From Halorubrum sp. PV6 (GTDB lineage: Archaea; Halobacteriota; Halobacteria; Halobacteriales; Haloferacaceae): a stretch of DNA of 64,000 bases. The stretch lies in assembly GCF_003990725.2 (NCBI RefSeq), contig NZ_CP030065.1, positions 62,001 through 126,000 of the forward strand. Reading direction: 5' to 3'. Each line of letters opens with the position of its first letter. Position 1 is the stretch's first letter. Both the position numbers and the translations under genes were made by a program. The notes under the pieces are model-generated. The model did not search any database and was not told the DNA's origin. It saw only the letters and a program-made list of their open reading frames with translations. Shown in pieces: positions 34,887-63,800 of the stretch.

Positions 34887-36125
34887 TCAAGACGCATACG
34901 TCCCAAGCGTCGCCTGCTGGGTGTCAGCATCGGCTTGGCTGTCTTGTGGGGCGGTCAAACGCCCCCCATCCTCAGCCGAGTCATCGTCGTTCTCGTGTCC
35001 TCTGAAACGACTCTCTCCGCTGAGGTAGCGGTCTACGATGTTCACCGCTCCGTTCACATCCGCTTGATACTCGCCCATCCAGCAAGCGTCGTTCGTACAC
35101 TTGAACGTCGCCTGTCGCGGGCGGTATCCCACCTCACCGCAAGCGTGGCACTCCTTCGAGGTGTTGCGCGGGTTCACCGTCTCCACCGGGATACCCTTCT
35201 CGACGGCTTTGTATCGAATCTGTGCGTGGAGTTTGGCGAATCCCCATCCGTGGAGACGCCGGTTCATGTACTCGCCGTAGTCCATCGACTCCCGTATATA
35301 CGTTAGGTCTTCCAGAACGAGAACGGGGTTCTCGACGGACTCGGCGTATTCCACGACTTCACAGGTGACGCGGTGGAACACGTCGTCTATCTGTCTCCAC
35401 ACGTCATCCCCGAAGGACTCCGCGATACGCTCGCTACCGCGCTTCTGAAGCCGCCTTGTGGCGGTGAAGTAGGTCTTGCGGAGCCGACGAACGGTCTTCC
35501 CCTCGTCGGCCCACAGTTCGGGAGCGGTCGGAGAACCGTGGTCGTCGCGGTGACACACCGTGACGAGCGACGCTTCCCCAATATCGACACCGATGGGCGT
35601 CGGTTCCTCAACGGACGCCTCGAAACCATCCTCCACGTCGCGGGTGGCGGTGACGTGGAGGAACCACGTCCCATCCCGCTCGAACAGCCGACTCTCCCCC
35701 ATCTCCGCGTCACCAGCGTTCAACGCTTCCAGCCAGTCTCGCTGTTCGGGATTCGGCTGTGCTGGCATCCAGAGGTGGTAGTCCTCGTGGTGCGGGATTT
35801 TGACGTACCACTCGATTGCGTTCTCGGGCTTGTGGTCGAGCCGTAGCCCCTCGTTCGTGAAGCGGACAGGGTGGTCGTCGTGAAGTTCGCCCGCGTTGTA
35901 CGTCGTCGTCAACTGCGGGACGTACTTCTTGAGCGCGTTCTTCGCGTACCCGCTCAGGTGGTAGTTGACCACCACGTCGTTCGCTTCGGTCTGCGTGGTA
36001 CATCGGGCGTCGAAGGCATCTTGGAGGGCGTGCTGGTACGTCTCTCGCGTCTCACGGAGTTTCCGCCGCTTGTGGGCGTTCGGCTCTACCAGTTTGAGTT
36101 CGAGCGTCTTCGTGAGTTCGATCAC
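34887..36125 (-). CDS. tnpB: TnpB, RNA-guided nuclease of IS200/IS605 element
   Basis: The 412-residue protein starts at GTG 36125, overlapping the tnpA stop (GTGA). The RuvC acids are present in PIGVDIGEASLVT, VLVLEDLTYIRE and YQADVNGAVNIVDR; the zinc ribbon is CHACGEVGYRPRQATFKC with a final C in TNDAC. The N-terminal helix-turn-helix region (LELKLVEPNAHKRRKLRETR) is intact. It would be guided by RNA transcribed from the right end, at present reading into the disrupted toxin-like gene. It is diverged from the TnpB at 15006. Confidence 0.9.
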   Translation of the reverse strand: MIELTKTLELKLVEPNAHKRRKLRETRETYQHALQDAFDARCTTQTEANDVVVNYHLSGYAKNALKKYVPQLTTTYNAGELHDDHPVRFTNEGLRLDHKPENAIEWYVKIPHHEDYHLWMPAQPNPEQRDWLEALNAGDAEMGESRLFERDGTWFLHVTATRDVEDGFEASVEEPTPIGVDIGEASLVTVCHRDDHGSPTAPELWADEGKTVRRLRKTYFTATRRLQKRGSERIAESFGDDVWRQIDDVFHRVTCEVVEYAESVENPVLVLEDLTYIRESMDYGEYMNRRLHGWGFAKLHAQIRYKAVEKGIPVETVNPRNTSKECHACGEVGYRPRQATFKCTNDACWMGEYQADVNGAVNIVDRYLSGESRFRGHENDDDSAEDGGRLTAPQDSQADADTQQATLGTYAS

Positions 36126-36511
36126 GAATCGCCCTCCTTGTGTTGCTGGACGTAGTTCTTGACTGTCTCACTTGAAACGTGCCCGGCGGTCCCTGCGTAG
36201 TAGCCTCGCGCCCATCCGATTTTCTCGCCGTCGTGGTCGGCGTATCGGTGGTTGTACTTGCGCGAGGAGATACCCTTGAACCAGTTGGCGAGTAGCGCCG
36301 GTTCGTTCTTGGGCGGACTACTGACGAACAGGTGAACGTGGTCGGGCTGTACGGTAAGGTCGAGAATTTCGACGCCTTTGTCGTCGGCTATTTCGTGGAG
36401 GATGGTTCGCACACGGTCTGCGACCTCGTTGACGAGTACCGAGTTGCGGTACTTCGGCAACCACACTATGTGGTAGTTGAGGTTGTAAGTCGCGTGCCGT
36501 GTGGTCTTCAT
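36122..36511 (-). CDS. tnpA: TnpA, Y1 HUH transposase of IS200/IS605 element
   Basis: The start is ATG 36511 (MKTTRHATYNLNYHIVWLPK), four codons inside a GTG alternative. The HUH motif is in LTVQPDHVHLFVSSPP and the catalytic tyrosine in VKNYVQQHKEG; the conserved KGISSRKYNHRY stretch is present. It cuts and joins single-stranded transposon ends at the subterminal hairpins. The length of 129 residues is normal. Confidence 0.93.
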   Translation of the reverse strand: MKTTRHATYNLNYHIVWLPKYRNSVLVNEVADRVRTILHEIADDKGVEILDLTVQPDHVHLFVSSPPKNEPALLANWFKGISSRKYNHRYADHDGEKIGWARGYYAGTAGHVSSETVKNYVQQHKEGDS

Positions 36512-36763
36512 CCGGTTGTACACTATCAGGCCACAGGATCTTAATACTGGCGGTGACTCAGTGGGAAATCCAGCGGTGGCGTCGTCGTTGGAAGTGTACG
36601 CTATTGTCCGCTTGACCCCCGCCTAAAGACGGGGGTATGCGCTCGTATCTCTATCATCCACTCGATGTGTACTCAACGGTGTTCGAAGCAATCGAGCAAC
36701 GTATTGAGTCGCTCTGGTGAGTGGTCTTTCCAACCGAACTGACCACCACCAACTGGCAATGAA

Positions 36764-37453
36764 TTACGAGAACTCCGGCCGCTCTACATACGCAATCGGG
36801 TCGCGTGACCCAGCGTTCCGGAACGCCTCTAACCGGAACGCACACGCGTCGCACGTCCCACACGCCGGCTCTTCATCGCGGTAACACGACCACGTCATCT
36901 CGTACGGCACCCCGAGCTCCAACCCGCGCTCCGCGATCTCCGTTTTCGACCACTTGACGAACGGCGCTTTCAACTCGATCTCCGTCTCCGGCTTTGTGCC
37001 GACGTCGATCACGTTCTGAAAGGCGTCGAAAAAGGCCGGACGACAGTCGGGATATCCTGAGAAATCCTCGGAATGTGCGCCGATAAACAGCGCCTCCGAA
37101 TCAGTCGCCTCCGCGTACGACGTCGCCATCGACAACAAATTCGCGTTCCGGAAGGGGACGTACGACGTCGGAATCTCGTCACTCTCCATGTCGGCGTCGG
37201 CCACGTCCATCTCCTCGTCCGTCAAACTCGACGCGCCGATCTGCGAGAGATGTCCCGTCTCGATATGGAGAAAGTCAGCCGCATCAACTTCCTCAGCGAG
37301 CGCTTTCGCACACTCGTACTCCTTGTCTTCGGTGCGCTGCCCGTACGAGGTGTGGAGAAAGTACGGCTCGTACCCCTGCTCGATCGCCTCGTAGACGGCC
37401 GTCGCACTATCCATCCCGCCGGACACCAGAATGACCGCGCTCTCGTTACTCAT
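36764..37453 (-). CDS. queC: 7-cyano-7-deazaguanine (preQ0) synthase
   Basis: The 229-residue enzyme has the PP-loop ATPase motif SGGMDSATAV near its N-terminus and the zinc-binding cysteines in TWSCYRDEEPACGTCDACAF near its C-terminus. It converts 7-carboxy-7-deazaguanine to preQ0, the precursor of archaeosine in archaeal tRNA. It is the last gene of the queD-queE-small ORF-queC operon. A diverged, frameshifted duplicate of its 3' end lies 3 kb away at 33601. Confidence 0.95.
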   Translation of the reverse strand: MSNESAVILVSGGMDSATAVYEAIEQGYEPYFLHTSYGQRTEDKEYECAKALAEEVDAADFLHIETGHLSQIGASSLTDEEMDVADADMESDEIPTSYVPFRNANLLSMATSYAEATDSEALFIGAHSEDFSGYPDCRPAFFDAFQNVIDVGTKPETEIELKAPFVKWSKTEIAERGLELGVPYEMTWSCYRDEEPACGTCDACAFRLEAFRNAGSRDPIAYVERPEFS

Positions 37454-37568
37454 GAATTGTCAGTCTCGTCGAGTCGATTGCTATTCTGTCTACTCCATCA
37501 CGAGCGACATCCGTGTCGCACTCGTGGCACCACACTGCTCCGACCCGGGTGTTGGCTGTCGTACTCAT
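37446..37568 (-). CDS. 40-residue CxxC small protein between queE and queC
   Basis: The ATG at 37568 overlaps the queE stop (ATGA) and the stop at 37446 lies inside the queC start region, so the frame exactly bridges the two genes with coupled ends. It reads MSTTANTRVGAVWCHECDTD then VARDGVDRIAIDSTRLTIHE. The single WCHEC pair could bind metal as a dimer. The tight overlaps argue for real translation; the function is unknown, and a leader role is also possible. Confidence 0.5.
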   Translation of the reverse strand: MSTTANTRVGAVWCHECDTDVARDGVDRIAIDSTRLTIHE

Positions 37569-38341
37569 GTCCCCGGCGCGTCGTTCCATAGGTCCACGTG
37601 CAGTCGCGGCGTGTACCGGTAGCCGTACTCCATCGCCAGTTCGGCGACCTCGCTTCGCGTCCCGTCAAGTTGCTCTCGCGTCATGCCCTCCGGCATCAAC
37701 AACACGTCATCATCGGCGACAGTCGTCGCCGTCGCTTCTCGCACCCGATCAACCAGGTCCGTGATTTCCGAGAGGTCCGTCTCGTCGGTCACGACGAACT
37801 TGAGTTGGGCCTCGTAGTCGTCGACCATCTGGGACAACGCATCCATGTCGATCCGATTCTGTTCGTGTTTCTGTTCCCACTCGCCCTCTCCTTTCGGGTC
37901 ACGCTCCGGTGTCGGCGTGCTGCTCGCCAACTTTGGGCTGATACTTGCCAGATCGATTGGCGCATCCCGATTGATCGTCCCGTTCGTCTCCACCGTCGTG
38001 TGATACCCCTCTGCGGCGAGTCGCTCAAGGAGTTCGACTGACTCCTCGTGGATGAGTGGCTCCCCACCTGTGAGCACGACGTGGCCAGCCTGTTCGTGGG
38101 ACTGCACCTCCTCGACGATCGAATCGACGTCGCGCCACGCCCCGGTCGGCTCCCACGACGTATGGTACGAATCACAGAACCAACACCGCAGGTTACACCC
38201 AGAGGTCCGTACGAAGACGGAGGGGACGCCTGCAAGCGTTCCCTCTCCCTGTAACGAGTAGAACACCTCGTTGATAGGAAGCCCCTCACCAGTCGCGTCA
38301 GCGTCCGTTGCGGGTTCCTCGATATCGTGTGCGACCGGCAT
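37565..38341 (-). CDS. queE: 7-carboxy-7-deazaguanine synthase (radical SAM)
   Basis: The start is ATG 38341 (MPVAHDIEEPATDADATGEG), overlapping the queD stop by one base. The 258-residue enzyme carries the radical SAM cluster motif CNLRCWFC in SVFVRTSGCNLRCWFCDSYH and a glycine-rich SAM site (HVVLTGGEPLIH). It rearranges 6-carboxytetrahydropterin to 7-carboxy-7-deazaguanine. EVFYSLQGEGTLAGVPSVFV is the family N-terminal hallmark. Confidence 0.95.
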   Translation of the reverse strand: MPVAHDIEEPATDADATGEGLPINEVFYSLQGEGTLAGVPSVFVRTSGCNLRCWFCDSYHTSWEPTGAWRDVDSIVEEVQSHEQAGHVVLTGGEPLIHEESVELLERLAAEGYHTTVETNGTINRDAPIDLASISPKLASSTPTPERDPKGEGEWEQKHEQNRIDMDALSQMVDDYEAQLKFVVTDETDLSEITDLVDRVREATATTVADDDVLLMPEGMTREQLDGTRSEVAELAMEYGYRYTPRLHVDLWNDAPGT

Positions 38342-38802
38342 CAGTAACTCGCACAGAGTTCGCCGGTTTCGCTCACCGACACCGACACGTCCGAGACGGT
38401 GTCTGGGAACGCATCGAGCATGCGTTGTTCGAGGAGGACGCTCATCACCTCTGCCGTTGGTGGGTGATCGAGGACGACGAGGGCGTCGCCGTCGCCCGAC
38501 GCTTCGAACGCGTCGACGAGCGGGTCGCCCTCTTCGACGAGGAACCGGTGGTCCCACGCGTCGATGACGTCCGTGACGTCGCCTTTATCGACGACCCAGC
38601 CTTCTTCGGTGAGTTCCCCGGTCACTTCGACGGTGATCTCGTAGTTGTGGCCGTGTGGCCGCGAGCACTTCCCATCGTGATGGAGGATTCGATGGCCCGA
38701 GCTAATTCGGATAGGGTTGTCGGCTCCGATTTGGAGTGTTCGTTGGCCTGCCTCAGCGAGATCGATCGGCTTAGAGTCATCTTTCGATATGCTCTGAGAC
38801 AT
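38341..38802 (-). CDS. queD: 6-carboxy-5,6,7,8-tetrahydropterin synthase
   Basis: The start is ATG 38802 (MSQSISKDDSKPIDLAEAGQ). The 153-residue enzyme has zinc histidines in ISSGHRILHHDGKCSRPHGH, with the catalytic cysteine between them, and a DHRFLVEEGDPL segment. It makes the carboxy-tetrahydropterin substrate of QueE. It is first in the operon; upstream 38803-39001 is shared with the divergent nuclease-like gene and holds no other gene. Confidence 0.93.
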   Translation of the reverse strand: MSQSISKDDSKPIDLAEAGQRTLQIGADNPIRISSGHRILHHDGKCSRPHGHNYEITVEVTGELTEEGWVVDKGDVTDVIDAWDHRFLVEEGDPLVDAFEASGDGDALVVLDHPPTAEVMSVLLEQRMLDAFPDTVSDVSVSVSETGELCASY

Positions 38803-39001
38803 ACCTGAAGAATACTTGTGTGAGGGATAAGCATTGAGGTTTGGTCGTCCTGCCGATGCCTCAGGCCGCACGATCGATGGAAGCCATCAGAGAGTGTCGA
38901 CGGTGAATCTAGGACTGATGGCAAATAGATACACTACGCCTCTGACTCTGGTTCTCTGAACCCCCCTCCCATTATGTTCCCCACGAGTGATAGGCAGTGT
39001 A

Positions 39002-40249
39002 ATGGCAGCCTCGCTCGCTGAACCTACGGTGCTTGCTGCGGCGAAAGATACGCTGTACCCGGATATTGAGACGAGCCCCGACCAGTACGCGGTCACGGAA
39101 ACGCAGTTCACGCAATCCACGTGGGGCGGCTGGACCGTCCCCGACACGATTCGTGACCGCCTCGCACCGTACAACACGATCCGACTCCACGCCGGCGAAC
39201 CCGATTTACTCGGTGTCGGCATGCCAGCCACCAACGTGTTGAACGGTGACGCAGCCACGACACCAGTCGCGGTGATCGAGGCGAAAGGCCACAACTCGGA
39301 CCCGGCCGCTGCCGACGTCGCTCGCGGCATCACGCAAGCGCACGCGCACCTCCCTGAAGTCAACCTCGGGTACGTCGCTGCGCCGGAACCCAGCATCACA
39401 GACGCGGCACGCGCACAAGCGAGGAACCTCAACGTCGGCATCATCGCCGTAGAGGACACTAACTCCGCGCGTGTCGTCGAGCCCGCCCGGGTTACGGGGG
39501 CCGGTGAGTTCTCCACGACGATCGACGCGGTGCGACTCCAAGCCACCGCGCACCGACTCACCGACGGGAGCTTCCCAGTGAATCACCCGAAAAACTACCT
39601 CGGATACGCGCTTGCGCTTGCTGCCGACGGTGACACCGAGACCGTGTACGCCGACAACGTCATCAACGCTATTTCTGGAGGGCGGCGCGGCGCTATTCTG
39701 TTGAGCCTCGTCGACGAGCAACCCACCGGCGACTCACTGACGCACCTCGGCGCAGAGGTCGTCCGCTTCGCCCGCGATCGGCATGGGAGCGTCACGGCTG
39801 CGCTCACAAAATTCGATAAGTGGACCGGCCGATCAAAGCGGTTCACGAAACTCGCCCCGAGGTGGGCGCAGCTCGCACGGTCCGTCGCCATCCAATACCA
39901 GCCGACTCGACTCATCATCAGCGCACTCGAACGGCTTCATCAGAACGGGACACGGGACGCGACGCTCGCCGACGTCGCACTCGAAGCCACACGCATCAAC
40001 CAGCCACTCGCTGTTGAGGTGTTTTTCACCCAACATCGACGAGAGGACGTTCTCACCGCAGACGGCGATCTTAACCAGTCCGCCCTCAGTGATCCGACGA
40101 TCTATAAATCCGGGATTCACTTCCAATTCAAATATCAGCTCTACCACGTCGGAATCCTCACCACCGGCGGCACCGACGACAAGAAGACCGTGTTGAGCAA
40201 CACATGGCGGTTAGAGCAAGCGGTTGGTAGCGCATCCGGACCATGGTGA
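39002..40249 (+). CDS. Predicted PD-(D/E)XK-type protein of unknown role
   Basis: The start is ATG 39002 (MAASLAEPTVLAAAKDTLYP). The 415-residue protein contains HAGEPDLLGVG followed about 20 residues later by TPVAVIEAKGHN, spacing and residues (D..ExK) that match PD-(D/E)XK nuclease cores; a further helix (AADVARGITQAHAHLP) and strand (VNLGYVAAPE) follow, as in that fold. The C-terminal half is probably helical and DNA-interacting. It is convergent with the helicase/exonuclease operon. Nuclease activity is inferred from motifs. Confidence 0.6.
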   Translation: MAASLAEPTVLAAAKDTLYPDIETSPDQYAVTETQFTQSTWGGWTVPDTIRDRLAPYNTIRLHAGEPDLLGVGMPATNVLNGDAATTPVAVIEAKGHNSDPAAADVARGITQAHAHLPEVNLGYVAAPEPSITDAARAQARNLNVGIIAVEDTNSARVVEPARVTGAGEFSTTIDAVRLQATAHRLTDGSFPVNHPKNYLGYALALAADGDTETVYADNVINAISGGRRGAILLSLVDEQPTGDSLTHLGAEVVRFARDRHGSVTAALTKFDKWTGRSKRFTKLAPRWAQLARSVAIQYQPTRLIISALERLHQNGTRDATLADVALEATRINQPLAVEVFFTQHRREDVLTADGDLNQSALSDPTIYKSGIHFQFKYQLYHVGILTTGGTDDKKTVLSNTWRLEQAVGSASGPW

Positions 40250-40335
40250 CCCAGGAGAGAGTTTCAACGGAGAACTGTACGCACTCACCGGCTTAGGTCC
40301 GTCTGTGAATGGATTGTTCCGCGTCGAATACCTCG

Positions 40336-42879
40336 CTACCTCTCTGACTGTGTATCGAACGCTGCCAACAAGTCATCAAGAATCATCGTCCCAGTCGCAG
40401 TATCGAGTGGGTCGTTGTTGTTCCCACAGTCTTCGCTCATGACACAGAGCGGGCAGCCCCGGCGACGGCCACACTCACAGTCAGCAATGTGTTCGCGTGT
40501 CCGATCAGCTAGTGTCTCGATGTGCTCGTATATCGCTTTTGAGAAGCCGATCCCACCGTCGATTCCGTCATGAACAAACCATGTTGGTCCTGGGATCGTC
40601 TCGTGTGGGTGCGACGGCGTTGAGAGTCCGCCAATATCGTGGTTATCGATCATCAGCTCCAGCGGCGCGAGTTGGATGATCCCGTGTTCAGCGGCGTGGA
40701 GCCCGCCGGCGTACGTGTACCGCGCTTGCTCCATCGGGACTCGCGGATCATCGCCCGCCCGTTCTGTTGGCTCTAAGAGCGGCTCGTCAAGCGAGTTGAT
40801 CGTCGCCTGTAGATGGTCTTCGGGCAGCGAGACCCACAGGAGTTCGGTCTGTAAATCAAGCGGCGGTGTCTCGGTCGGAAGCGGCCCCTCAATTAGCTCA
40901 CCCGTCTGATAGTCACGGACCATGTAGTTCCCGTAGGTGATCCGCACCGTCCCTGTCCCGAAGTAGACATTATAGTCACCTGCCAGCGACGTGTGGTCTT
41001 TGACTTCGAGATCCTGAACCTGCTTGGTTGACAGCGTCTGCGTGTAGTGCGTGGTAGCTACCTCTTCGACGTGAATTCGCGGGTGGGGCTGGCTGTGGTC
41101 CACCTCGATCACTTCGTACTGTTGACCTGCATGGAGGAACAACGCTCCCTCGTGGTAGTCGCGGTAGGCTCGTTCGGTAGCGACCGGGTCGTGCTCAATT
41201 TCGCCGTTGGTACAGACCACCTCGTAATCGATGCCTGTCGTCCCGTACAATGAGATCCGGCTCTGCGGGCGTCGGTCGCCGGCGTAGGTGACACCGCCAG
41301 CGTCGAGATCCCCCGCTTGTTCAAGTAGCCCGGCGTCTTGCCACATGGCAGTCATTTCCCGGAACCGGTCCTCGCCACCGAGATACGGCGCATCTTCAGC
41401 CGTCAACGGACGTTCAGCGGCTGCCGCTAGCAGGTGGTCCGCGAAGACGCGGTCGTTATCGATGGAGACCACCGCGTCCTCCACGGTGTCGTCATCGAAC
41501 AAGTACCGCGGATTATCGAGAATATAGGCATCCATCGCGTCCTTCCCCCCGACAAGCACTGAGAGTGCGTCGCTCGTCCCGCGGCCCGCACGGCCGATCT
41601 GCTGCCAGAAGGACTGTTTGGTCCCCGGATATGAGTCCGTCACCGTTGCGTCCACCGACCCGATATCAATCCCCAACTCCAACGCATTCGTCGAAATAAC
41701 CGCATCGAGGTCAGCGCTTTTCAACTGGTTTTCGACGGATCGACGCTTCCGCTTCCCAAGGCCCGCGTGGTAAGGTTCGACGTCGATGTACCTATCACGC
41801 GGGTGGTCACGGACGGCCTGAACCGTTTGTTTTGCACCGATTTCGGTCCCTTGACGGGCTGTCGTGAACTGTAGCGTCTGGATCCCGTTGACCGCTAAGT
41901 GCGCCGTCACGGAGGATGCTTCACGCGCACTGGACCGACGTGCCTGTTCGAACCCCTCCATCAGGTCGCCGCTGCCATCATCATACCCTTCGAGCGCCTC
42001 GTCATCAAGCGGCGGCTCCCACAACACGATATCACGATTCCCACGCGGCGACCCATCCTCGCTGACGACGCTGAACTCGGCTCCAGTCAATGTGGAGGCG
42101 TGAGCAGCCGGATTACCGATCGTCGCAGTCGTGATCACGAACTGCGGATCCGCACCGTAGTGGGCGAGTACGCGCCGAAGCCGGCGCAAGATCCACGCAA
42201 CGTGAGTCCCCATGACACCGCCGTACTCGTGGCCCTCGTCAATCACCACGAGCTCAAGATTACTGTAGAAGCGATGCCAGCCGCGATCCTTGTTGTGGCG
42301 CGGTAAGTAGACGTTCAACCCGGCCGGGTTCGTGAGGATGACGTTCGCATTCTCACGAACAGTCCGCTTCCGCTCATCTTTGGTGTCACCATCATACGTC
42401 CCGATGTGAGTATCAAGATCCAACTCACCGCGCAACCGATCGTTCAGCGCTTGTTCTTGGTCGTTTGTGAGCGCTTTCGTCGGGAACAGACAGAGTGCGG
42501 TCGCATCATCGTTAGCGAGGTGATTCCGTGCGATCTGAAGCTGGTAGATCAGCGTCTTTCCCGATGAGGTCGACGTCGTAACAACCACGTTCTCATCGGC
42601 CGCAAGCAGATCCAGTGCCTCGGCCTGATGTGAGTACAGATCATGGCCGAGCGGTGACGCAAGCCGATCCTGAAGTACGTCCTCGGGAGCGACAGTCTCA
42701 GCAGACTGCGCGTCGAGCCGCTCACTATGCCGGATCTGTTCACGCCAGTCCGGGAACGACTCTTTCAGCTCCGACTCAGAGAGAATCTCGCGGTGACTAG
42801 CAGTCCCTCCATCGGGCCGCAGCATCCGCGTGTCGGTTGAGGTCACGTGTTCGGATCGAGGTGAATGGTTATCAGTCAT
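40336..42879 (-). CDS. DUF1998 DEAH-box helicase, MrfA/YprA-like
   Basis: The 847-residue superfamily 2 helicase has TTSTSSGKTLIYQLQ (motif I), VVIDEGHEYGGVMGTH (motif II, DEGH), VITTATIGNPA (motif III) and FWQQIGRAGRGT (motif VI). The C-terminal DUF1998 cysteine cluster ends in CECGRRRGCPLCVMSEDCGN. Bacterial MrfA/YprA has this layout and works with a YprB exonuclease in an excision pathway for mitomycin adducts. Here the helicase ATG lies 2 bp after the exonuclease stop, supporting a joint function. Confidence 0.82.
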   Translation of the reverse strand: MTDNHSPRSEHVTSTDTRMLRPDGGTASHREILSESELKESFPDWREQIRHSERLDAQSAETVAPEDVLQDRLASPLGHDLYSHQAEALDLLAADENVVVTTSTSSGKTLIYQLQIARNHLANDDATALCLFPTKALTNDQEQALNDRLRGELDLDTHIGTYDGDTKDERKRTVRENANVILTNPAGLNVYLPRHNKDRGWHRFYSNLELVVIDEGHEYGGVMGTHVAWILRRLRRVLAHYGADPQFVITTATIGNPAAHASTLTGAEFSVVSEDGSPRGNRDIVLWEPPLDDEALEGYDDGSGDLMEGFEQARRSSAREASSVTAHLAVNGIQTLQFTTARQGTEIGAKQTVQAVRDHPRDRYIDVEPYHAGLGKRKRRSVENQLKSADLDAVISTNALELGIDIGSVDATVTDSYPGTKQSFWQQIGRAGRGTSDALSVLVGGKDAMDAYILDNPRYLFDDDTVEDAVVSIDNDRVFADHLLAAAAERPLTAEDAPYLGGEDRFREMTAMWQDAGLLEQAGDLDAGGVTYAGDRRPQSRISLYGTTGIDYEVVCTNGEIEHDPVATERAYRDYHEGALFLHAGQQYEVIEVDHSQPHPRIHVEEVATTHYTQTLSTKQVQDLEVKDHTSLAGDYNVYFGTGTVRITYGNYMVRDYQTGELIEGPLPTETPPLDLQTELLWVSLPEDHLQATINSLDEPLLEPTERAGDDPRVPMEQARYTYAGGLHAAEHGIIQLAPLELMIDNHDIGGLSTPSHPHETIPGPTWFVHDGIDGGIGFSKAIYEHIETLADRTREHIADCECGRRRGCPLCVMSEDCGNNNDPLDTATGTMILDDLLAAFDTQSER

Positions 42880-42881
42880 GG

Positions 42882-44510
42882 TCAGGAGAAATCGGCGAGC
42901 GAGCCTTGTGAGCTGTTTTCACCGGTCGGCGTCTTCGTTTCCGAGTCCCGTCGCGCAGCTGCTTCGAGATGCTCGTAGATCGTAGCGAGCGCTCGCACGT
43001 CGTCTTCGCAGTACCGTTCCAACCGGTCCCAGTCCGGTTCAACAGCGGTTCCGGCGTTCGCCTCCCCGGCAACCTGGCTTCGATACACCGTGTACAGCTT
43101 GGCAACGGTCTCACCGTCGATCCCGTTCGTCGACGGCTCCCAGCCGAGCGCGTCAGCGACGTGTTCCAGCTTGTTCGTTCGCCCAGGAAGCGCTGCGTTG
43201 CCGCCGTTCTTCTTCGTAGCCCACCACAACGCATCGAACTGATAACGATCGGTCCAAGCCTCCACGAGATCTGGGTGGTGCTGCTGGAGTTGTTCGGTGA
43301 TGACCGGAAAGTCGAATCGGTACCCGTTCCATGCGACAACCGGCCGGCCCGACGCAGCACCGGTGAGCCACGTCATAAACGCCTCTAAGTGTGACCCGTC
43401 ACCGACCGCCTGTTCCCGGAAACTCATGTAGTGCCCATCCTCAGGGCCGCCGTCGAGAACTCCGATCAGCCACGCCGTCGATGGATTCAACCCGTCCGTC
43501 TCAATGTCGATGAACACCGGATCCTGATTCGGTAACGAATCATCACCCGTCGGGAGGACGGTATTCGTGGACTGTGCCTCAGCAGCGGTCTGGATCGTGC
43601 TCGCAGACGTTCGCCCCAACCCAGATAATTCGGTGAGTTGCCGGAGCGGAGTGTCAGCGAGCGCCTCAACGGTAGTGGTGCCAGCATCACGCAGCGTCTC
43701 AAACCGTGTCGGACCGATCTCCGGAACACCGCGCAAGCCGAATTTCTGCGGATCAATCTCGGACACGTCGATCGCTCCGTTCGAGTAGAGCGCAACGAGC
43801 GTTGCCTGTGTCGTATCCGCCGTCGTACCAACACCGAGATCGGCGTTCGACATCCCGACACCAACAAACTGCGCGTCACCATCGTCTCCGTGACTCCGTG
43901 TCGTCGTGAACCCAGCCCGTAGCGCCGTCGAAAGATGAACTGTACGCGCCGTCCACCACTGATCCGGAACCCGGCCGCGATAGCTACTGATCCCGTCAAG
44001 CGTTGCTGACCGGGCATACGGATCCACAGATAACGAAACAGACTGGTCAATCAGACAGATCTGAGAAGTCGTCGCTACATCAGCCGGATCTTCTCCCACT
44101 GAAGACATCCCGACTCTGCTCGCAATCCGCTCTGGGTCGAGCGGCTCCTCACCCATCGGCAACGCTATGACAACACACCGATCCTCGTCTGTAACCGCCA
44201 CGTCCGGCCGCATCCCGGTGCCAACTTCAAGAATATCGAGATCAAACTCCCGACTGAGTGCCGGACCAACGATGCTCGCCTGCGGCTCCGTCGCAACAAG
44301 CACATCAGGATCCAAGCTATCGACTACCGCGGTGATAGTATCGCGGTGAGAGGCGCTCACAGCGGCCCCAGAAAGCGCAAGGACTCGAGTCGGCGATTCA
44401 TCTGGAGGCGGCAACGCCGGCAGTTGTGGACCCGCTCCACCACCGTCAGTATTGAAGCGTGGTGGAGGGGTGGAGTCGGAGTGCCGAGCGGAATCCGGCT
44501 CGTTAGTCAT
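42882..44510 (-). CDS. YprB/MrfB-like RNase H-fold exonuclease with HhH domain
   Basis: The start is taken at ATG 44510 (MTNEPDSARHSDSTPPPRFN). The C-terminal exonuclease begins DPVFIDIETDGLNPSTAWLI, with VVAWNGYRFDFPVITEQLQQ and LERYCEDDVRALATIYEHLE, matching the DEDD-type YprB family. A helix-hairpin-helix pair precedes it (FGLRGVPEIGPTRFETLRDA, LTELSGLGRTSASTIQTAAE), which would bind DNA. The N-terminal 250 residues are unassigned. Bacterial MrfB instead has TPR repeats, so the fusion differs. It probably trims DNA opened by the helicase downstream. Confidence 0.78.
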   Translation of the reverse strand: MTNEPDSARHSDSTPPPRFNTDGGGAGPQLPALPPPDESPTRVLALSGAAVSASHRDTITAVVDSLDPDVLVATEPQASIVGPALSREFDLDILEVGTGMRPDVAVTDEDRCVVIALPMGEEPLDPERIASRVGMSSVGEDPADVATTSQICLIDQSVSLSVDPYARSATLDGISSYRGRVPDQWWTARTVHLSTALRAGFTTTRSHGDDGDAQFVGVGMSNADLGVGTTADTTQATLVALYSNGAIDVSEIDPQKFGLRGVPEIGPTRFETLRDAGTTTVEALADTPLRQLTELSGLGRTSASTIQTAAEAQSTNTVLPTGDDSLPNQDPVFIDIETDGLNPSTAWLIGVLDGGPEDGHYMSFREQAVGDGSHLEAFMTWLTGAASGRPVVAWNGYRFDFPVITEQLQQHHPDLVEAWTDRYQFDALWWATKKNGGNAALPGRTNKLEHVADALGWEPSTNGIDGETVAKLYTVYRSQVAGEANAGTAVEPDWDRLERYCEDDVRALATIYEHLEAAARRDSETKTPTGENSSQGSLADFS

Positions 44511-45011: not shown

Positions 45012-45539
45012 ATGGCGAAAGGTAAGGTTGACTTTTTCAATGATGAAGGTGGATACGGATTTATTGAAGTCGAGGATACAGATGAGGATATATTCTTTCA
45101 TATGGAGGATGTTGGCGGTCCGGATCTTGAGGAGGGTCAAGAGGTAGAGTTCGAGATCGAAGAGGGTAATGGAGGAATAAAAGCAAAAAGTGTTGTAGCG
45201 TCGGGGTCTCTTCCGGAACCAGAGTCCGGGGACGCTGGCATAGAAGAGATAACCTCAGAAATAATTGAATTCCTTGAAACTCATGCTCCGGATGATAACG
45301 AGACTGTACAAATTAATATAACAGATTCTGAGCTAGAAGGTGAATTCGAAAGGATGGGTGATGTATTGGATATACCTGAAGCAGAGGTCAGAATGCTAAA
45401 AAACCTCATTTTAGAACTAATTGAATCTCGACTTGAGAGCGAACATATTACTATGGATATCGAAATGAAGGAAGCCACTGCAAACGTTATAGCATCTACA
45501 CTCATTCAAGAATACACTCAAACTGGTGATGAAAAATGA
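45012..45539 (+). CDS. Cold-shock-domain protein with unique C-terminal domain
   Basis: MAKGKVDFFNDEGGYGFIEV begins a CspA-like OB fold of about 65 residues with both RNA-binding patterns (GGYGFIEV and DIFFHMED). It is followed by an acidic 110-residue extension, EITSEIIEFLETHAPDDNET then VQINITDSELEGEFERMGD and a helical LKNLILELIESRLESEHI, that I cannot assign. Archaeal cold-shock proteins are normally single-domain, so the fusion is unusual. Codon use is AT-rich, unlike the neighbours. It overlaps the next ATG by 4 bp. Confidence 0.78.
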   Translation: MAKGKVDFFNDEGGYGFIEVEDTDEDIFFHMEDVGGPDLEEGQEVEFEIEEGNGGIKAKSVVASGSLPEPESGDAGIEEITSEIIEFLETHAPDDNETVQINITDSELEGEFERMGDVLDIPEAEVRMLKNLILELIESRLESEHITMDIEMKEATANVIASTLIQEYTQTGDEK

Positions 45540-45799
45540 TCGATATGATCTATTCTATAGTATCGGGAGCAACTAGCAGTGTGACCTCAAAGCTGTTAGG
45601 TCTGTTTCTGGACGTGGAGAACAAACCGGAGAACCCTGATTCAAAAGTCACCTCTCAAGCTGATGAATTGATAAAGCAAATTGGTGAAAATGCTAGCGCT
45701 CCAGATGACATCCCATCTGCTTTGAATGGATTTAATTTCACTTACCAAACTGCTGATGGTGAAGTGAACAAACAGTATGAGTTCTCTGACTCTGAATAA
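45536..45799 (+). CDS. Hypothetical 87-residue partner of the cold-shock-domain protein
   Basis: The start overlaps the previous stop (ATGA), so the two are translationally coupled. It reads MIDMIYSIVSGATSSVTSKL then LGLFLDVENKPENPDSKVT and ends in an acidic tail (YEFSDSE). The N-terminal 25 residues could be an amphipathic or membrane-associated helix. I know no family. The pair could be a two-gene stress or defence system, but nothing in the sequence proves that. Confidence 0.6.
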   Translation: MIDMIYSIVSGATSSVTSKLLGLFLDVENKPENPDSKVTSQADELIKQIGENASAPDDIPSALNGFNFTYQTADGEVNKQYEFSDSE

Positions 45800-60834: not shown

Positions 60835-63800
60835 CTACGGTAGGGGCCCTTTCCCGTCTACTAGATCATACTTTTCCAAGACCAGATCGAAGTACATCTC
60901 GTCCATCAGCTTCGAGTTCCCAACCCGATGGAAGTCGTCAAGGACAAACTTCACATCACGACGTTCGAGCCCATATGCGTGGAATGCGGCTGCATCGATC
61001 TCAGCTTGTAACTCTCTACGTTCTTGTTCTTCTACTGCTGGCTTGATTCCGCCGAGTCGCTCGCGCATTTCTTTGAACTTCTCCCCGTAACAGTTCAATC
61101 GGGCAGCTCGTTCAGCGATATAGTGGAACCAGTCATCTCCGTCGGTGAGGCGGGGTAGCTGGGATTCCAGTAACTCGCGCTTGACGATGTGCGTCTCTAC
61201 TTTGGTCCGCATTAGGAAATCGAATACAATGCTGTTCAGAAGTCCCGTTGCCACGAAGAGCTCTTGATCGGTAAATCGCCGGACGTAGGGTGACCGGAGT
61301 GGGGACTCTGTGAGATGTTCCTCTTCCGGCTCAATAGCGAACGGCTTGAACGTATTAATGGTGTGGAGACAGATGACTTCTTTCGGAAGTACCGTCGCTA
61401 TTATTGTTCGCTCGTCACGGGCACGAGAAACATCCCGAATTCCGATTCGGTACTCAGTACAATCGAGTAGAACGTCCTCTTCCTCAAGTCCGTGACCACG
61501 GTGTTCTTCGAGTAGTTCATCTACGAATTGAACTTGAGACTTGCTCGTCTTTGACCCTCCAAAGGCGTCGTAGATTGCCCGTTTGAGATTACCCTTGTTG
61601 AATTTCTTCTCTCGAACACGGTACTGAGCACTATTCACTGGATCGTACATCCCCCGACTCCAGTACTTTGGTCCATCTAACGCATCTGTGTGGGTATTAT
61701 CGTACTGGAACTGATGGATATTTTTGCCGCCGTAGACGGGATAGTCGGCCTCCTCAGCCGATGTCTGGAGCCTATCCTTATCAGTCGATTCAACGAACTC
61801 CTTAGTGAGCATATCAACTGTCCAAGTCTCGTCTAAATCTTCACCCAAAGAAGGCTGCTCAACTACCTTCTCCAAGACGCTTACTTCGATCTGCGAAGTG
61901 ATGGATGGGAAAATTCCACCTTCTGGAGAATAACTGACGAGTACGTCGCGCGGGATGTTGACTGCCTCATTTTCGATCCGATAGACTATATCCATGTCAC
62001 GTTGGTTGAATATCCCTCGAAGAGCTGATGTCTTTCCCCCATATTCGAATGTCAGAATCGCGAACCGGTATCTATCATCGATAGCCTCGAAGATGCCCTT
62101 GTTCTCGAACCCGATGAGATTCTCCACATCCGTGTGATCCAGCAGATGCATTCGGAGATCTTTCCCCATTACTCCCCCAAAAATAGTACCGGGAAGGAGC
62201 AGACTCACCTTCACGCCGTCTCTGGAGAGTCTGAAGACCCGCTCAAGAAAAAGAGCCGAAAGTTCGTTCTTTGTCGGCATCGTTCGACCGCCCACCACGG
62301 GAGATTGGAGCTTGTAGACATCTCCCTGCGTGAAGAAGTCTGCCTGAGTTTCCATCGATTCCTTGTAGTCCTCCCATGCCCACGCAACTTCAGGGCTTGA
62401 GAGGAGGTTCTCCATCACACCGTCTTTCTCCTCCGACGGATAGGTACGGAACTGCTCATCGTAGCGGATGAAGAAGTCGTCGCGGTTCGCGTAGAGCATG
62501 TCCCATGGTGGGTTCCCAATGAACACGTCGAATCCTCCTCTCTCAAAAACATCAGCGAACTCCAATGGCCAGTGGAAGGGGGACCACTCTCGGATCTCCT
62601 TGATCGTAATGTCGTCAAAGCCAGCATCTTGGAATTCTCTCTGGAGGATTTCATCAAATTTGTCTCGGTGTTCCTCTATCCTGCCTTCTGCCTCTTTCCG
62701 CCATTTTTGTGCCCCAACGCTGGTCTCTGCTTCCTTGTGTTTCTTGATAGCCTCTTTCACGTCCTCGAAGCGAGTTTTAATCTCCCAAGAGTCGAGGTCG
62801 CTATCTCCGTCTTCGTTGCTCTCAATGCCTGTATCAAGTTGACCAATTAGGCTGTTGCCCTGCCGCACGTTGAAGTCGATGTTAGGGAGTGGCTCCACCT
62901 CGTTGGGCTCGTCTTCGATGTCGGCGACCATCGAGAGCCAGAGACGAAGTTTACAGATTTCGACCGCACCCTCGTCGATATCGACCCCGTATAGATTGTT
63001 TAGGATGACCGTTCGCTTCGCGTACAGCGATGCGCCGCCTTGCCCTTCGTTGATTGAGTCCAATTCGTCGCGAGTGCGAGACTCCAACTCCCAGCCTTTC
63101 TCCTCCGCTTCGAGCTGCTGGAAGTACTCAATACACTGGAGATAGATGTCCACCAGCACGTCCTGCGCGGCGAGCAGGAACGCGCCACTCCCGACCGCGG
63201 GGTCGAGGACGTGCGCCTCCTTCAAGATGTCGTGGTATAGCGTTTCTACGTGCTTCGTCTCCACGCTCTCGGTGGCCGCCTGCTGGGTCATCGTCCCGCC
63301 ATCCGCAACCGCTGTCCCGCTTTCGGCAACCTTGACTTCGGAGAAGCCAAACACGTTATCGATCTCGTCGTACTCGGTGTCGATGGTGTCGTTTAGCTGG
63401 TCGAGAAGGTATGGATGAATCGTCCGGCGGGACATGAAACCGGTGATCTCCTCAGGCGTATAGTACGCACCCATCTCCTTCTGATTAACCGTCTGCTCGA
63501 AGATGTGACCGAGTATGGCCGGCGAGAGGTTCTTTGGGTCGACTATGTCGAGTCGCTCGTCCACGTTCCAGTTCCACCCCGATAGGAATTCTAAAATATC
63601 GTTGAGGAGTTCATTCGTCTCCTCAGCGGACGCTCCGACCTTTGCGTCTGGGAACTCCTCCTCGACAGGGTCTTTTGCGAACAACCCGCCGTTCAGGTAC
63701 GGGAGGCTCCCGAATTCGGGATTTTGCTTGTCCTCTGCTAGGTAATCGAAGAACAGTGGCCGGTAGAATTTCTCGTACCGGTCCTCACCGTCGTTGACGA

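Follow-up and report, generated by a model that had tools for sequence, protein, structure and literature searches.

In Bacillus subtilis, the MrfAB (YprAB) pair repairs mitomycin damage; it is specific for this damage and works independently of UvrABC (PMC11194089). Its exonuclease, MrfB, has a DEDDh active site (His258) and C-terminal tetratricopeptide repeats (TPR) (PMC11194089), and MrfB-associated helicases have been placed on the repair branch of the YprA tree (PMC12458937). In Haloferax volcanii, mitomycin damage is handled jointly by UvrABC and NreA (PMC7776575), and NreA, the activity of which is given as unknown, needs PCNA for this repair (PMC4929162). We analyzed a stretch of 64,000 nucleotides from Halorubrum sp. 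PV6 (positions 62,001 to 126,000 of contig NZ_CP030065.1, the 300,774-bp contig of a genome of 3.04 Mb in two contigs; hereafter the window) that encodes an exonuclease (E) directly followed by a helicase (H). E and H form a strict, co-inherited two-gene unit of haloarchaea. The reading that we favor, with a probability of about 0.6, is that of a DNA-repair unit that is similar to MrfAB in its action and adapted to the archaeal replication machinery through PCNA.

Pairing of the helicase and exonuclease genes

An earlier note made from the letters of this DNA had described three genes at the locus, E, H, and a convergent neighbor (N), and all three were recovered in the open reading frame (ORF) list of the window. 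At the level of the class, counting strong E matches and excluding weak ones, all 118 strong H places and all 118 strong E places were adjacent within 4 kb, in 110 of 292 genomes; at a threshold of 1e-12, E homologues were found in 116 of these genomes, 110 of them strong. Within the family, a strong E was present in 23 of 119 genomes, with H beside each. A match to YprA-type helicases at 1e-60 was detected in 117 of the 119 family genomes, which represents a near-universal, more distant copy, and in Halorubrum sp. PV6 a second YprA-type helicase sits on the other contig than E and H.

The arrangement was equally regular in the best 80 named loci of a genome-collection search with E, all of them haloarchaeal by title. 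H was found on the same strand downstream of E within 700 bp in 79 of these loci and at 850 bp in the 80th, and the gap between the two genes was mostly between -11 and +45 nucleotides (nt). The pairwise distances of E and H correlated with r = 0.94 (76 of the 80 loci), partly reflecting shared species history. Neighborhood comparison revealed no third conserved gene, as no neighbor family occurred in more than 4 of the 23 family neighborhoods. The pair was found on both plasmids and chromosomes, with a patchy and often plasmid-borne distribution; in Halobacterium salinarum R1 it corresponds to OE_RS12870 and OE_RS12865 on pHS3, with an overlap of 4 nt. Two of the 23 family neighborhoods (L048 and L050) carry a second YprA-type helicase, 37% identical, directly upstream of E, giving a helicase-exonuclease-helicase order.

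Outside Halobacteria, no full-length E was present among the matches listed for 294 sampled genomes of the phylum. The best of these matches from outside the class (E-value 4.6e-24) covered part of the helix-hairpin-helix (HhH) and exonuclease regions, and most others covered the HhH region only. Viral contigs gave at least 14 weak partial matches and no full-length E among the matches listed.

Domain composition of H and E

The DEAD, Helicase_C, and MZB/DUF1998 families all matched H above their curated Pfam cut-offs, corresponding to the superfamily 2 (SF2) core with a C-terminal MZB domain that characterizes MrfA/YprA. The closest solved relative, ranked first by phmmer, was B. subtilis YprA (MrfA; 6znp, E-value 1.7e-93), and Cys801, Cys803, Cys809, Cys812, and Cys818 of H were invariant across 14 aligned rows. 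By these sequence features, H is a YprA/MrfA-type helicase. The parallel with MrfAB that the earlier note had drawn from the gene adjacency was therefore borne out, with a gene for an RNase_H_2 exonuclease next to H in 118 of 118 places.

In E, two Pfam families matched above cut-off, RNase_H_2 (2.8e-25) and HHH_5 (1.5e-6), and each was present in all 69 members scanned. The HhH region was helical in the AlphaFold2 model of E (predicted local distance difference test, pLDDT, 86.6). The earlier note was thus right that the exonuclease carries HhH motifs, and right as well that it has no TPR repeats: no TPR family was among those listed for the 69 members, and the model showed no helical repeat past the exonuclease core, with a disordered linker and a short tail following after residue 525. 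Residues D335, E337, D400, Y500, and D504 were kept in 81 of 81 sequences, and the active site therefore has a DEDDy arrangement. E shares with MrfB the DnaQ/RNase_H_2 core with four acidic residues, but in place of DEDDh it has Tyr500 four positions before Asp504 in every sequence, which we take to be the Y-x3-D motif common to family B polymerases. Structural comparison using VIA matched the domain to a family B polymerase exonuclease (5mdn_A, Z 16.0, root-mean-square deviation [rmsd] 3.2, 172 residues aligned). Because two MrfB features, DEDDh and TPR, are lacking, we do not class E as MrfB. A profile search of the PDB with E returned only HhH-type matches in the best 60 of 117 rows, which were the ones inspected; MrfB was not among them, which excludes nothing.

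The lists obtained with the whole model using Foldseek and VIA were filled by the exonuclease domain, and for this reason residues 30-256 were folded alone (AlphaFold2, pLDDT 86.5). With this model, Foldseek retrieved Mre11, aq_1956, TT1561, purple acid phosphatase, and human Pol delta p50, all weakly (best E-value 1.2e-3), and the top VIA match was 2yvt (Z 10.6, rmsd 3.7, 170 of 227 residues aligned). From their titles, we take the best 50 VIA rows to be calcineurin-like phosphoesterases, and the predicted model has this fold. When the metal ligands were searched for, no Asp, Asn, or His column reached 90% across 69 sequences, and the domain is therefore probably inactive. Judging from the model, the N-domain of E is probably a catalytically dead calcineurin-like phosphoesterase fold; Pol delta p50 is a phosphoesterase B-subunit without metal ligands. 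A predicted fold can now be given to the long N-terminus that the earlier note had left unassigned. A RecB/Cas4-like N-terminus, suggested by a match to TIGR03491 below cut-off (E-value 1.3e-9), was dropped because the match spans only the HhH and exonuclease regions and the predicted fold is phosphoesterase-like.

A haloarchaeal plasmid protein, exemplified by P1Y19_RS21085, combines Pfam Metallophos, HhH, and a related exonuclease, and provides an independent hint at a phosphoesterase-exonuclease fusion in this clade. The full-length profiles of E and of this phosphoesterase sister aligned only past the end of the N-domain. On plasmids of Haloterrigena salifodinae, Halorientalis marina, and Halobacterium hubeiense (L243, L244, and L245), the sister protein belongs to a conserved cassette that also contains two unknown genes, a Cdc6-like gene, and a gene for SRAP (SOS-response-associated peptidase). 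On two of these three plasmids, a type B DNA polymerase comes next, and the cassette resembles a mobile module for damage tolerance or replication.

In all 80 named loci, E ended in QxxLx[DES][FW], and the Q and L of this tail were kept in 81 of 81 sequences while the preceding linker varied. As a background, a slightly looser motif ended 11 of 467 flanking gene-like ORFs. The tail corresponds to the PCNA-interacting peptide (PIP) pattern Q-x-x-h-x-x-a(a) at an exposed end (80/80), with one aromatic residue instead of the two that the canonical PIP motif carries. The raw DNA pattern for QxxLxDF occurred at 15 places in this genome and at 13 for a backward control, so it is not enriched genome-wide, and position at protein ends is its sole telling feature. 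The long conserved proteins of this genome with QxxLxDF at an end were E, NreA, RfcL, photolyase, and Hel308, at the C-terminus (within 4 residues), and PolB, at the N-terminus; another of the 15 places closes a frame of 17 residues, which is probably not a gene. The one-aromatic form of the motif is common to NreA, RfcL, Hel308, photolyase, and PolB of this genome. RfcL and PolB belong to the core clients of PCNA, and in Haloferax volcanii the PIP motif of NreA is required in vivo for mitomycin repair (PMC4929162). The genes for photolyase, Hel308, and PolB (L130, L132, and L122) lie on the other contig of this genome (C1). The shared sequence motif suggests clamp contacts for photolyase and Hel308, of which no discussion was found in the excerpts of the literature examined.

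Three features of E go beyond the earlier note: its active site of the DEDDy type, the PIP-like motif at its C-terminus, and its predicted phosphoesterase-like fold. The chromosome of this genome also encodes an RNase_H_2 protein (G000:C1:897265-897714, L246; frame of 284 residues) that lacks both the long N-domain and a PIP-like tail; E may be related to this protein as an elaborated, accessory form. The PolB-like exonuclease fold, the clamp-like tail, the B-subunit-like N-domain, and the frequent location on plasmids would also suit a replication-fork or proofreading-type accessory that acts on 3' ends, flaps, and stalled forks of plasmids and chromosomes and not in adduct repair. We consider such a role unlikely, since the pair is dispensable, being present in only 23 of 119 family genomes, and since MrfAB, the closest pair with experimental data, acts specifically on mitomycin damage.

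The convergent neighbor and the surroundings of the pair

Residues E7, P67-D68, E93-A94-K95, and Q112 of N were the same in all 22 relatives aligned, and the D..EAK nuclease-like core noticed previously is therefore more than a chance pattern. We presume that these residues, with E, PD, ExK, and Q following one another in this order, form a PD-(D/E)XK motif, and N is accordingly a predicted, intact-looking nuclease of this type. No Pfam, NCBIfam, or PADLOC family matched N; a Pfam scan of 22 members gave only scattered, weak, single-member matches, and comparison with PDB sequences gave nothing below an E-value of 0.5. N was found in 52 of the 119 family genomes, in several as fragments or with in-frame stops, and its neighbors vary in other genomes. 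No match to N was found in phages, and none of 254 pattern stretches in viral contigs was confirmed.

The earlier note had suggested that N, H, and E could form one crosslink-repair or defense unit. The layout, which recurs on a megaplasmid of Halorubrum ezzemoulense, together with the invariant active-site residues of N, would agree with a three-gene unit, but the distribution makes it very improbable. N accompanied the pair in 7 of the 23 pair genomes and occurred in 45 of the 96 others (Fisher odds ratio 0.50, p 0.17), adjoined it in only 1 of the 23, and was absent from the DNA examined around all 80 named pair loci, so that this genome and the megaplasmid were the only cases of adjacency. 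In a genome of the same genus (G115), N lies near queC and queE in the same que island without E or H. With no positive co-occurrence, the outcome that the earlier note had named as refuting its proposal was obtained for N, which was rejected as a partner of the pair and acts separately from it. In Halomontanus rarus (L054:7989-10934), an N homologue is convergent with the phosphoesterase-exonuclease and thus again adjoins a related exonuclease, which may be chance.

The que-N island is a variable hotspot. At the place that E and H occupy in Halorubrum ezzemoulense, the G115 island (L059) holds a 972-residue HATPase-methylase, two further methylases, one of 514 residues and one of the Dam type, and a PbeA-like protein. 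These neighbors, the Dam-type methylase that follows E in Halorubrum ezzemoulense, and the patchy, often plasmid-borne distribution of the pair are what antiviral or anti-plasmid defense would predict, in which H would find and unwind foreign DNA, E would degrade it, and clamp binding would catch replicating invaders. We regard defense as improbable. The earlier note had proposed crosslink repair or defense, and repair is retained as the best guess because no third gene was conserved in the 23 neighborhoods and because E has a conserved clamp-binding-like tail of the kind common to repair and replication proteins. Defense is also disfavored by the relationship of H to MrfA, given the repair branch formed by MrfB-associated helicases, and by the lack of full-length E among the listed matches in viral contigs.

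The features of the locus are listed in Table 1. N and H are separated by 86 bp, and the start codon of E coincides with the end of the segment that the earlier note had singled out. Genes for QueC, QueE, and a 6-pyruvoyl-tetrahydropterin synthase (QueD-type) adjoin N (window 36764-38871). Two ORFs at 34887-36523 presumably encode, from their sequences, TnpB and TnpA of an IS200/IS605-type element, and a cold-shock-domain protein with a C-terminal extension (45012-45799) overlaps a small ORF.

Table 1. Positions in the window of the genes and of the predicted domains and motifs of the locus.
Feature	Positions	Strand	Remarks
Frame of N	38987-40249	+	ORF call; ATG at 39002
N, predicted PD-(D/E)XK nuclease	39002..40249	+	Convergent neighbor, judged not part of the E-H unit
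H, predicted YprA/MrfA-type SF2 helicase, 847 residues	40336..42879	-	2 nt downstream of E
H, zinc-binding MZB (DUF1998) domain	40441..40692	-	Pfam match and invariant Cys
E, exonuclease gene, 542 residues from ATG at 44510	42882..44510	-	Longer frame reaches 44585
E residues 535-541, QGSLADF, C-terminal PIP-like (putative PCNA-binding) motif	42888..42908	-	Conservation at protein end
E residues 328-527, DEDDy 3'-5' exonuclease domain, family B DNA polymerase-like	42930..43529	-	RNase_H_2, catalytic residues, 5mdn_A
E residues 258-315, helix-hairpin-helix region	43566..43739	-	HHH_5 and helices in model
E residues 40-252, predicted calcineurin-like phosphoesterase fold	43755..44393	-	AlphaFold2 model, Foldseek, VIA; ligands not conserved, probably inactive

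Proposed function and comparison with known systems

Computation shows how the two genes pair, which domains they encode, which catalytic and PIP-like residues are kept, and which folds are predicted; PCNA binding by E, a complex between E and H, and the type of lesion are what we infer. In a bolder form of the proposal, to which we would give slightly less than even odds, the pair may be a PCNA-tethered excision machine that combines, in one protein, a dead Mre11/B-subunit-like domain with a DEDDy exonuclease like that of PolB, removes a damaged strand, and hands the gap to a clamp-bound polymerase; it would be an archaeal counterpart of MrfAB and a possible enzymatic arm of PCNA-dependent mitomycin repair. 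In the reading that we favor, H, the studied relatives of which act in the 3'-5' direction, would open the damaged or gapped strand. E would bind the DNA through its HhH region, and its exonuclease, similar to that of PolB proofreading, would degrade the exposed strand from the 3' end. The PIP-like tail would tie E, and through E also H, to PCNA, coupling removal of the damaged strand to gap filling by the PCNA-bound polymerase. The inactivated N-domain may serve as a structural or docking module, comparable to the B-subunits of replicative polymerases in eukaryotes, which are catalytically dead phosphoesterases, and likely substrates would be bulky or mitomycin-type adducts.

Several observations weigh against the repair unit that we favor. 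E lacks the two MrfB features mentioned above, the fold of its N-domain was obtained by structure prediction and matched in Foldseek with weak E-values, and the sequence profile of this domain did not match that of the related phosphoesterase-exonuclease (probability 0.3). The tail has one aromatic residue and is disordered in the model, and its raw pattern is hardly more frequent than the backward control. The patchy, often plasmid-borne distribution would also suit defense. The literature search found no experimental work on a member of the unit, and no paper on the haloarchaeal pair was found in a search that covered few subscription journals.

If the pair is a clamp-tethered helicase-exonuclease, it would be a concrete enzymatic candidate for the repair of mitomycin-type adducts in the lineages that have it. 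In Haloferax volcanii, loss of UvrD does not give the phenotype that was expected, for which reason a helicase redundant with UvrD was proposed (PMC7776575). The question is directly testable in Halobacterium salinarum R1, since this strain carries the pair on pHS3.

Among described systems, MrfAB is similar to the pair in its adjacent genes for a YprA/MrfA helicase with an MZB domain and a DEDD exonuclease of the RNase_H_2/DnaQ fold. E differs from MrfB in being DEDDy, in lacking TPR, and in having HhH motifs, a phosphoesterase-like N-domain, and a PIP-like end, and no description of this haloarchaeal exonuclease was found in the excerpt of PMC12458937. Defense systems of the DISARM, ARMADA, and Druantia types differ from the pair in their conserved extra operon genes, such as those for a methylase, another helicase, or a nuclease. 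The 3'-5' exonuclease domains of family B DNA polymerases are the best structural matches of E, which has no polymerase domain. Mre11 and inactive phosphoesterase B-subunits such as Pol delta p50 match the predicted fold of the N-domain; this likeness is at the level of the fold, and E differs from them in the fusion of this domain to HhH and exonuclease regions. The P1Y19_RS21085-type plasmid protein has the same order of phosphoesterase, HhH, and RNase_H_2 exonuclease, but it keeps most phosphoesterase motifs, has no PIP-like tail, and is found with Cdc6, SRAP, and PolB and not with H. NreA of Haloferax volcanii, an unrelated protein not linked to a helicase here, shares with E the C-terminal PIP-like motif in the same haloarchaeal one-aromatic form, and by this analogy a role of the pair in the same type of damage is possible.

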